DNA of 64,000 bases from Methanosalsum zhilinae DSM 4017 (GTDB lineage: Archaea > Halobacteriota > Methanosarcinia > Methanosarcinales > Methanosarcinaceae). Below, piece by piece: positions 37,288 through 59,431 of the stretch. Below the pieces are notes generated by a model, which saw only the letters and a list, made by a program, of their open reading frames with translations, ran no database searches and was not told the origin of the DNA. Numbering within the stretch: position 1 is the first letter of the stretch; every line of letters starts with the position of its first letter. The stretch covers positions 1,781,708-1,845,707 of the forward strand of contig NC_015676.1 of the NCBI RefSeq assembly GCF_000217995.1, written 5' to 3'. A program made the position numbers and the translations under genes.

Positions 37288-37325
37288 TGGGCATTAAGCC
37301 CACCTTAAATATTTTTATTTTATTT
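37288..37325 (+). terminator. Short hairpin with T-rich tail
   Basis: TGGGC and GCCCA (37288-37292 and 37298-37302) flank ATTAA. AT-rich sequence with ATTTTTATTTTATTTTATTTT follows. It lies between two convergent genes and could end the plus-strand gene at 37257. The stem is only five pairs, so support is modest. Confidence 0.5.
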
Positions 37326-38738
37326 TATTTTCGCCATCAAGTAAACTGCAGCCAGTGTCCCTGAAATTGCAAGCAATACTCCGAATCCGGGCACAGGTTC
37401 AGGCTCCGGCTCGGGTTCAGGTTCGGGATCTACCGGTTCTGCAAGACTTCGTTCAAGTTCAAAACCAAACTCTCCCATTCTCTCAGCACCATGCGGGACA
37501 GGGGCTCCTGCTTCAGTGCATACAATTCCTGTACCATGTAATTCGCCATCAAAGAGTGATGCATAGCTAAACACACTCGGATAGAACAGGCTTATAGTTG
37601 TACCCGGTACTTCATTCCATTCAGGAGACTGACCAGTAAACCTTACAGCCTCCACATCAGCTTCAGTTCCAATTCCAAGGGAATGTCCCCAGGTAACATA
37701 ATGGTCCCTTCCTGATGTATCACCTATATGAACTGCAGGAGATATGTAATAGACCTCACCTTCGGATAAAGCTAAATCTTCCAGCTGATATCCGGTATCC
37801 AGTTTTCTTACAAGTTCCACAGTCCAGGTACCTTCACTCCATGTACCATCTGCTGTGATCTGTCCTCTGCTTTCAGTTGGAGCTGTGATGATCCGCCGGG
37901 GAATTGTATCTCCTTCCTGCCACTCATATTCAGAGTCAAAAGGTACTGCAAATTCCTCTGCCAGGTAATAATAGTCATCCATCCCCAGGTTTCTGTCCCG
38001 TACATCCTCCCAGTCCAGTGCTACAAATCCGGTTACTTCAGGATCGAACATGTATGCAGGCCGGTCATTATCATCATCCCAGTTCGTATAGTATGGAGAC
38101 TGGCCAGTATCACTATGACGGAATTCAAGTATATGCTGTGAATCAGAGTATCCAACCGGATTGCTTCTGTGAGCCCGCCAGTGAATCAGGTCAAGGAAAA
38201 CTCCATCTTCTCTTAACTGGTCAAGTTCCTCCTGGGATACGATGTTGTCCCAGCTTAGAGGGTCGCCCCTGGTCTCGGGAATGTACTTGCGTACATCACT
38301 TACACCAAGCACGCCGCCAAGATACTCATGAGCCCCTACCTCTTCAGCAGATGGAGAATCCGGCATGAATCTTACATCGTCATGGCAGGTTACAAAACAT
38401 CCAAGTGTATCAAAATAGTTTACCTGATGCCCACCAAGCAGCATGGTCATCCGGTCCTCATTGTATCCGTCCCTTACCCATTCACCATCTTCAAATCTGT
38501 AGTAGTCATGATAAATTCCTGGATACTGCATCTGTGCAGAATCGAATTCAAACAGAAAATGAATGTTTTCATCATTGTATGCGGCCTTTATATTCAGGTC
38601 AATCGTTTCCCTATCCACCGGAACCTCATCAGCAGCTGCACCTATGCTAAAAGCAGTCAGTATTGCTGCAAAGAGAAATAAAGTGCAGGCTATGCGATGT
38701 ATTCGGGAAATCTTATAAGAGCCGTTATATCCTGTCAT
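37320..38738 (-). CDS. Exported EB_dh-like haem-binding domain protein with PGF-CTERM anchor
   Basis: 472 residues from ATG 38738 (MTGYNGSYKI), selected for its GGGGTGAG Shine-Dalgarno. A signal peptide (about residues 18-37, ACTLFLFAAILTAFSIGAAA) precedes a beta-rich domain resembling the ethylbenzene-dehydrogenase-related / cytochrome c-552-DMSO reductase-like family: IKAAYNDENIHFLFEFD and GTWTVELVRKLDTG. It contains CFVTCH, a CX3CH arrangement that could hold a c-type haem. The C-terminus has a Pro-Glu linker (five PE repeats), then PGFGVLLAISGTLAAVYLMA and a Lys-containing tail, the PGF-CTERM signal read by archaeosortase A. It should be exported, cleaved at PGF and lipid-linked. The substrate is unknown. 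Confidence 0.82.
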   Translation of the reverse strand: MTGYNGSYKISRIHRIACTLFLFAAILTAFSIGAAADEVPVDRETIDLNIKAAYNDENIHFLFEFDSAQMQYPGIYHDYYRFEDGEWVRDGYNEDRMTMLLGGHQVNYFDTLGCFVTCHDDVRFMPDSPSAEEVGAHEYLGGVLGVSDVRKYIPETRGDPLSWDNIVSQEELDQLREDGVFLDLIHWRAHRSNPVGYSDSQHILEFRHSDTGQSPYYTNWDDDNDRPAYMFDPEVTGFVALDWEDVRDRNLGMDDYYYLAEEFAVPFDSEYEWQEGDTIPRRIITAPTESRGQITADGTWSEGTWTVELVRKLDTGYQLEDLALSEGEVYYISPAVHIGDTSGRDHYVTWGHSLGIGTEADVEAVRFTGQSPEWNEVPGTTISLFYPSVFSYASLFDGELHGTGIVCTEAGAPVPHGAERMGEFGFELERSLAEPVDPEPEPEPEPEPVPGFGVLLAISGTLAAVYLMAKIK

Positions 38739-38953: not shown

Positions 38954-39157
38954 TCATTTATTCTTCTGGCCTTTCATCATCTCCATCATTTCCGGCATGT
39001 TCATACTCTGCATTTCCCGGCAGAAAGGCATCATCTCTTTCATCATACCCTGTGGATCCTTTTTAAAAATCTCACACATGGACGGCATTATTGATTTAAA
39101 GAATTCCACCTTTCCCTCATCGGATAATGCTTCAAACTTTTCTTTCAGATCGTTCAT
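38954..39157 (-). CDS. Small Met-rich protein of unknown function
   Basis: 67 residues from ATG 39157 (MNDLKEKFEALSDEGKVEFF), chosen because a strong GGAGGTGAT lies 5 bases upstream; the longer frame would start before it. The N-terminal half is a charged helix and the C-terminal half is unusually rich in methionine (PQGMMKEMMPFCREMQSM, then NMPEMMEMM), with two Cys. Such clusters can bind copper or react with oxidants, which would fit the nearby catalase. This is inference. The protein is soluble and not recognised. Confidence 0.7.
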   Translation of the reverse strand: MNDLKEKFEALSDEGKVEFFKSIMPSMCEIFKKDPQGMMKEMMPFCREMQSMNMPEMMEMMKGQKNK

Positions 39158-39172
39158 AAATATCACCTCCAT

Positions 39173-39600
39173 ACTCCCATTTCAATTTACAATTTTCCGG
39201 ATATAAACGCCTTATGGTAAGCCATGGGCAGAATTAAAAAAGTAGAGGACATAAATGAGATCATGAGCTATGTTGTGATTGATAGAGAATTAAAATTTCA
39301 GGAAAAAATCCATCAGAAGATGATATTAGTAAATGGATAATATTAAGATTTTAAACTTATTTAAAAGAGCTATTTTGAGCTTTAAATATATTTTAAACTT
39401 AAATACTAATTATAAATATAAATAAAACTTATTTAAATAATAAAAACTATTTAAATTGATTAAAATAGAATTTTATTATATTTAGATTCATAAATACTAA
39501 TTAATTCTAAAAATAGATTGAATGAAAGCTTTATATCTTTAAAAAACATATATAACATGTTAGTAATCCCATAATTCTGGGGGGCTAATTGGGAGGTGAC
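39173..39600. repeat. AT-rich tract with short direct repeats
   Basis: The stretch from about 39345 to 39560 is almost purely A and T. AAACTTATTTAAA occurs at 39353-39365 and again at 39425-39437, with a one-base-shorter copy (AAACTATTTAAA) at 39444-39455. AAATACTAATTA occurs at 39401-39412 and 39492-39503. No gene is supported inside; a 38-codon ORF at 39224-39340 lacks a ribosome site. Near its right end CATATATAAC (about 39547-39556) is a TATA candidate for the small gene at 39608. Base composition is unlike the flanking genes. Confidence 0.6.
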
Positions 39601-39607
39601 ATAACAT

Positions 39608-39688
39608 ATGGTCAAACCACAGGAATCAAAAAAACCAGGACAGACTGCCAAAAAAGGGGAGCAGGCTAAAAAGCAGCAGAAAAAGTAA
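39608..39688 (+). CDS. 26-residue Lys/Gln-rich small protein
   Basis: The product begins MVKPQESKKPGQTAKKGE and ends QQKK. It has nine Lys in 26 residues, no hydrophobic segment and a predicted pI above 10. Support comes from signals around it: GGGAGGTGA 8 bases before the ATG, a TATA element (CATATATAAC) about 55 bp upstream, and a hairpin terminator 33 bp after the stop. It is too short for normal gene finders. It could bind RNA or a ribosomal partner; the tail resembles Lys-rich N-termini of archaeal ribosomal proteins. It is monocistronic and convergent with gltS. Function is unknown. Confidence 0.65.
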   Translation: MVKPQESKKPGQTAKKGEQAKKQQKK

Positions 39689-39721
39689 ACTAATATGATA
39701 TTTCATCCTGCAAAAATCTTG

Positions 39722-39753
39722 AGGTTGCTTTTTTGGCAACCTTTCTCTTTTTC
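39722..39753. terminator. Hairpin terminator between the 26-residue gene and gltS
   Basis: AGGTTGC (39722-39728) pairs with GCAACCT (39736-39742), a perfect 7-bp stem with a 7-base loop of six T and one G. TTTCTCTTTTTC follows on plus. On minus, ATTTTTGC follows the stem, so it may end gltS as well (its stop is 39783). Confidence 0.65.
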
Positions 39754-58708: not shown

Positions 58709-59431
58709 ATGGCAGAGAAAAGAGAACCTGCACCAGAATGGCCGATTCTGAAAGGAGAATATGATATAGGAGATGTGAAGAACTGTGTTGCAGTAATTAC
58801 ACTTGGTTCACACCTGCCTGCAGAACCCCAGCTGGAAGCCGGTGCAGCTATTACAGGTCCCTGTAAAACAGAGAACCTGGGACTTGAAAAGGTGCTTGCA
58901 CATATAATATCCAACCCGAACATACGTTATCTACTGATAACAGGGTCTGAAGTAAAAGGTCACATTACAGGGGATGCATTCCTTAAGATTCATCAAAACG
59001 GTGTAAAAGAAAACAGGATTGTTGGTGCAGTAGGCGCAATCCCCTATGTGGAGAATCTGACACCCGAAGCCATTGAGAGGTTCCAGCAGCAGATCGAGTG
59101 CGTGGACCTGATAGGTACAGAGAACATGTCAGAGATCACCTCCAAGATCAAAGAGCTTGCTTCCAGGGATCCTGATGCATTTGATGCAGACCCAATGGTT
59201 GTTAAAGTCGGAGAAGACGGTGCAGAAGAAGAAGCAGCTACCGGTATTAAGCCAATGGCTGCAGAAGTTGCGGCCATCCAGGCAAGAATACGGGACATCG
59301 ATAGAGAAATGATTCAGGCCGGTGTAATGAACAAATTCCATTCAGGAGTTCATGCCGGTAAAATCGAAGGCATAATGATGGGGCTGGTAATTTCATTGAC
59401 AATACTTGGCCTTTTGTTATTCGGGAGGTGA
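58709..59431 (+). CDS. mtrA: Tetrahydromethanopterin S-methyltransferase subunit A (corrinoid protein)
   Basis: 240 residues. MtrA binds the cobamide whose cobalt accepts the methyl group. The N-terminal domain (to about 170) contains ITGSEVKGHITGDAF, where the conserved His is expected to ligate cobalt. A helical linker (about 185-215) leads to a C-terminal membrane anchor (SLTILGLLLFGR). The methyl group is then passed to coenzyme M with coupled Na+ transport. The gene follows mtrB by one base and precedes mtrF. Confidence 0.96.
   Translation: MAEKREPAPEWPILKGEYDIGDVKNCVAVITLGSHLPAEPQLEAGAAITGPCKTENLGLEKVLAHIISNPNIRYLLITGSEVKGHITGDAFLKIHQNGVKENRIVGAVGAIPYVENLTPEAIERFQQQIECVDLIGTENMSEITSKIKELASRDPDAFDADPMVVKVGEDGAEEEAATGIKPMAAEVAAIQARIRDIDREMIQAGVMNKFHSGVHAGKIEGIMMGLVISLTILGLLLFGR

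Follow-up and report, generated by a model that had tools for sequence, protein, structure and literature searches.

A putative stand-alone gene for a 26-residue lysine-rich protein conserved between two species of Methanosalsum

Is a reading frame of only 81 bases, lying at positions 39608-39688 of the forward strand in the window (the whole 64-kb stretch of Methanosalsum zhilinae DSM 4017 DNA that was analysed), a gene in its own right? The ORF consists of MVKPQESKKPGQTAKKGEQAKKQQKK followed by TAA, and its reading bears out the original prediction of an 81-base frame encoding 26 residues, of which nine are lysines, without any hydrophobic stretch. The product, of about 2.94 kDa, is rich in Lys, Gln, Pro and Gly, contains neither Arg nor Cys, and has a pI of 10.3 and a net charge of +6.5 at pH 7. 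Methanosalsum is a genus of salt- and alkali-loving methanogens belonging to the same family as Methanosarcina, and NCBI lists two named species in it. The host genome is a single contig of 2,138,444 bases, and the small gene is present in single copy both here and in Methanosalsum natronophilum AME2. On the sequence comparisons set out below, we consider it probable (roughly 0.7) that this is a genuine stand-alone gene, restricted to Methanosalsum, for a basic Lys/Gln-rich protein of 26 residues (30 in M. natronophilum).

A tblastn search of other Methanosarcinaceae had been proposed as a check, and among 101 genomes of the family it gave a single convincing match, in M. natronophilum AME2 (E 1e-5, 73% identity). 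The homologue, MVKPLDSKKPGNAAKKGEQSKVQQSKQQKK, has 30 residues and lies at L002:1501-1593. With the gap set as in the DNA alignment, 21 of the 26 aligned residues are identical. The difference in length comes from a 12-nt in-frame insertion in M. natronophilum, which adds VQQS inside a tail of similar composition and leaves the charge unchanged, so that both products have nine lysines and a charge of +6.5. The start, stop, frame, Shine-Dalgarno sequence, TATA element and 3' hairpin are all retained, as expected for the real small gene with a conserved frame that had been predicted; this conservation rests on one other species, there being two sequences in all of the alignments.

The expression signals were also as predicted. 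A BRE and TATA element, GAAAGCTTTATATC, is found at 39524-39537, about 70 nt upstream of the ORF (all features are on the forward strand unless marked -), and M. natronophilum has GAAATATTTATATC at the homologous place. The pattern GAAANNTTTATAT matches only once in the 64-kb window (GAAAGCTTTATAT, at 39524-39536) against an expectation of 0.08, a figure that is indicative only, as the pattern was picked post hoc with the site already known. Given the usual archaeal spacing between promoter and start, transcription driven by this element is predicted to begin near 39560. A second TATA-like sequence, ACATATATAA at 39546-39555, is a possible alternative promoter, with ACATATAT common to both species; its predicted start would be near 39577, and the sequence does not decide between the two boxes. 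The Shine-Dalgarno sequence GGGAGGTGA (39591-39599) is identical in M. natronophilum and includes a perfect GGAGGTGA at 39592-39599, 8 nt upstream of the ATG, as ideal a ribosome site as had been claimed. A short leader would thereby offer a full-strength Shine-Dalgarno to 16S rRNA, and the single small ORF would be translated.

The arrangement of GGAGGTGA followed by ATG at 3-10 nt is found at four places in the window, where 0.48 would be expected, and none of 100 shuffled sequences reached four. The other ORFs behind perfect GGAGGTGA sites are a neighbouring 67-residue Met-rich small protein at 38954-39157 (-) and two at 59044-59127 (-) and 59438 (+), of 27 and 75 aa. The Met-rich neighbour is absent from M. 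natronophilum, and gave one weak partial match in 61 genomes of the family.

Downstream of the stop codon is a 9-bp hairpin at 39721-39743 (fold z -3.5), identified by folding and by a terminator scan. It has the form GAGGTTGC-ttttttg-GCAACCTT and runs into a T tract, the whole (39721-39753) being the likely 3' end of the transcript, where transcription would stop. The region has two terminator-like sites compared to 0.2 expected. The hairpin lies outside the block aligned by blastn, yet inspection by eye and alignment show that it is kept in M. natronophilum, where the variable pairs stay paired (G-U to A-U, G-C to G-U and U-G to U-A). It is assigned to the small ORF and not to a convergent neighbour, because the next gene in M. 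natronophilum is on the + strand. The predicted hairpin terminator is thus present and conserved. A complementarity between ORF and terminator seen in the window is not conserved in M. natronophilum, and a leader-peptide reading was ruled out, the next gene in the window being on the opposite strand. All of the components that define a stand-alone archaeal small-protein gene (promoter, ribosome site, ORF of less than 70 codons, and terminator) are therefore to be found at this locus, noting that the category describes a kind and not a homology family.

Beyond these two genomes, a third Methanosalsum genome (72% complete) has no homologue. A degenerate motif run against 186 genomes of the order matched just the window genome and M. 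natronophilum, and a profile search of 238 genomes of the class found no credible third member. When 112 genomes of the family were searched with an RNA model built on the leader and the ORF, only the two known copies were recovered, all other hits having E values of 0.28-0.64. Scanning 84,980 species genomes for the motif returned 28 matches, with a small ORF of the same kind only in M. natronophilum; one viral motif match is not of this kind. Phages, plasmids, Pfam, PHROGs and the PDB yielded no family, structure or profile match. Weak protein and profile matches in Methanosarcina and other genera were treated as chance. One of these overlaps, in a different frame, a gene with a CYTH domain, two others overlap an RfbD-like gene, and the remaining ones inspected have no small-gene setting, as judged by a rough check in which the frame was read downstream on the strand of the locus. 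Weak DNA matches at E > 0.004 were short AT- or A-rich pieces. As far as these searches reach, conservation ends at the level of the genus.

A survey of Methanosarcina mazei describes 314 translated small ORFs, none longer than 70 aa, that had gone unannotated, some of them confined to species or genus (PMC11456600), and because of this the prior for a real small gene here is high. The M. mazei stand-alone small proteins, which include regulators such as sP26 and MtrI, resemble the Methanosalsum gene in being short single-gene transcription units missed by length cut-offs, and the survey describes conservation at genus or family level only, as here (PMC11456600). MtrI in particular is a stand-alone small-protein gene that had escaped detection, and its product acts on large complexes; its structure comprises a zinc ribbon and four helices (PMC12774963), whereas the Methanosalsum peptide has no Cys and no zinc-ribbon-type domain. 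The Methanosalsum gene is of the M. mazei small-protein kind, likened to it by kind rather than by homology, and is new as a member.

The composition of the product provides some clues as to what it might do. The N-terminal segment SKKPG would be extended and the basic C-terminal stretch possibly a helix, at a net charge of about +6.5, and the conserved core VKP..SKKPG..AKKGEQ together with the Lys-rich tail would be well suited to a polyanionic partner, for instance rRNA or some other RNA. The conserved charge is compatible with binding to RNA or to a large complex, as judged from composition only. Our first guess at a polyanionic partner, the ribosome and its rRNA or another RNA, is likewise drawn from composition and is a tentative one. 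For the 30-residue homologue, AlphaFold run on the single sequence predicts a helix at residues 11-29 (pLDDT 81, pTM 0.25), which is compatible with the proposed binding, although we give it little weight.

Two groups of known small proteins invite comparison. The bacterial ribosomal peptide bTHX (26 aa) and the archaeal and eukaryotic eL41 (about 25 aa) are both Arg-rich. They are similar to the Methanosalsum peptide in size and strong positive charge, but the latter is Arg-free and, unlike eL41, is found in one genus only. Searches against the eL41 and bTHX families and against PDB ribosome chains gave no match at E values up to 10, a result of low power with so short a query. Small proteins of the YjzC type carry an N-terminal motif KPG..A..G, which the sequence KKPGQTAKKG resembles; the Methanosalsum peptide is much shorter, and it does not match the Pfam YjzC profile even at E values as high as 10.

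A comparison of synonymous and nonsynonymous changes had been suggested as a further check on coding, and it gave a divided answer. In simulated mutation sets of equal size, 21% keep the frame, and only 1.2% both keep it and equal or exceed the observed substitution score (P ~0.012), in agreement with a coding sequence. On the other side, the excess of changes at third positions is not significant (P ~0.14), and synonymous sites are unusually conserved. Only three of the 20 codons with the same residue in both species have changed synonymously, whereas three neighbouring genes predict 11.9 (P 6e-5) and the mcr genes, chosen for comparison as highly expressed, 9.65 (P ~0.0009). Within the first 18 codons, the 13 with unchanged residues show no synonymous change at all (P ~0.0007). 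These P values for synonymous sites treat codons as independent, and were computed on a two-sequence alignment after the pattern had been seen. Codons 2-19 contain five nucleotide differences, all but one nonsynonymous, which is the reverse of plain protein-level selection; nonsynonymous changes occur at codons 5, 6, 12, 13 and 20.

Since synonymous sites have changed less than the mcr genes predict, selection on both RNA and peptide, or else a non-vertical history, is likely. Identity counted per 20 bp peaks at 0.85-0.95 over 39580-39659 and is lower on both sides (0.65 for 39560-39579; 0.47-0.75 for the 3' portion of the cassette), and this peak with a drop to either side favours local constraint on the RNA over a uniform recent transfer. 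The comparison suggests a role for the RNA sequence itself, in addition to the peptide.

The alternative that best survives is that one transcript serves as message for the peptide and also as a base-pairing regulatory RNA, hence the conserved synonymous sites and leader. We regard it as unlikely, although the low count of synonymous changes and the position of the conservation peak both speak for it. So do compensating changes in a possible 5' transcript-end hairpin at 39560-39588, the best fold of the leader, in which TCCC pairs with a GGGGGG stretch just upstream of the ribosome site. Against it, the whole-transcript fold is no more stable than shuffled sequences (z -0.8 and -1.7), Rfam gave no match above gathering score, and the codons are few, so that start-proximal codon bias or short length may itself depress synonymous change.

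The leader hairpin is a weak lead from two sequences, between which one pair differs on both sides and another on one side only, with pairing kept in each case. In the window species the fold would mask a G-rich decoy while the true ribosome site stays largely free. In M. natronophilum the transcript folds similarly, and the isolated leader slightly favours a competing fold in which the ribosome site is paired. It is worth adding that the leader (39560-39599; L002:1500-1660) repeats a GGGAGG-like motif, as decoy and as real ribosome site, and that one pyrimidine stretch can pair with either. This repeat is a possible translational switch, but a switch by competing hairpins was not established.

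The genomic setting bears on the second alternative, namely that the segment was recently exchanged or moved between lineages, by horizontal transfer or transposition, so that its conservation reflects recent shared origin and not constraint. Comparison of the window with 29 kb around the M. natronophilum copy gave a single DNA match, at 39466-39663 (81.6% identity), and the conserved cassette amounts to about 200 bp in two unrelated genomic locations. Its outer edge is an AT-rich upstream segment at 39466-39523, with an identity of 0.64-0.75 per 20-bp step, whereas shuffled AT-rich DNA aligned in the same manner scores about 0.49 and at most 0.63. The right-hand neighbours in the window (symporter, radical SAM and NrdD genes) are syntenic in M. 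natronophilum, on a different contig from the small gene, and at the symporter locus there its place is taken by a 268-residue protein and a thioredoxin-like gene; retention is therefore not passive synteny. The left neighbour of the M. natronophilum copy has no counterpart in the window genome. With its own signals kept and its neighbours unlike, the cassette has therefore moved relative to its neighbours.

The non-syntenic locations, and a DNA identity above that of syntenic core genes (symporter 75%), are what a recent exchange would produce. However, the uneven identity inside the cassette is a better fit to local constraint than to a uniform recent origin, no flanking, terminal or target repeats common to both copies were found, and each genome has a single copy. 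We therefore think a recent exchange improbable. A combined picture, in which a dual-function Methanosalsum RNA, preserved nucleotide by nucleotide over the leader and first 19 codons, would encode the basic peptide on a small cassette relocated between the two species, we judge to be similarly improbable.

Two further features lie near the cassette. At 39233-39339 (+), just upstream of the promoter region, is the frameshifted and decayed remnant of the small thioredoxin-like gene that stands intact at the symporter locus of M. natronophilum (L051:159-392). The gene at 37320-38738 (-) encodes a methanogen protein of the secreted or surface type, with an ethylbenzene-dehydrogenase-type domain and a PGF-CTERM sorting signal.

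Least probable of all is a non-coding small RNA with an incidental reading frame: nucleotide-level conservation of synonymous sites and the tolerance of nonsynonymous changes would fit it, but it is very unlikely in view of the full-strength Shine-Dalgarno at ideal spacing, the conserved ATG and TAA and the in-frame 12-nt indel, with a joint chance of about 7% for the frame (about 21% of simulations keeping it, times about one third of indels being in frame) even with the ribosome site left uncounted.

The preferred reading thus remains a small protein-coding gene of an ordinary kind, whose sole odd feature is an unusually well preserved RNA sequence, and it leaves general concepts unchanged. 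With nucleotide conservation strong and protein conservation only modest, the gene is a candidate for separating coding and RNA roles. It also illustrates that comparing whole cassettes between two species can reveal such genes even where no flanking genes are shared. If translated, the product would be one more genus-specific basic microprotein among the few known in haloalkaliphilic methanogens.
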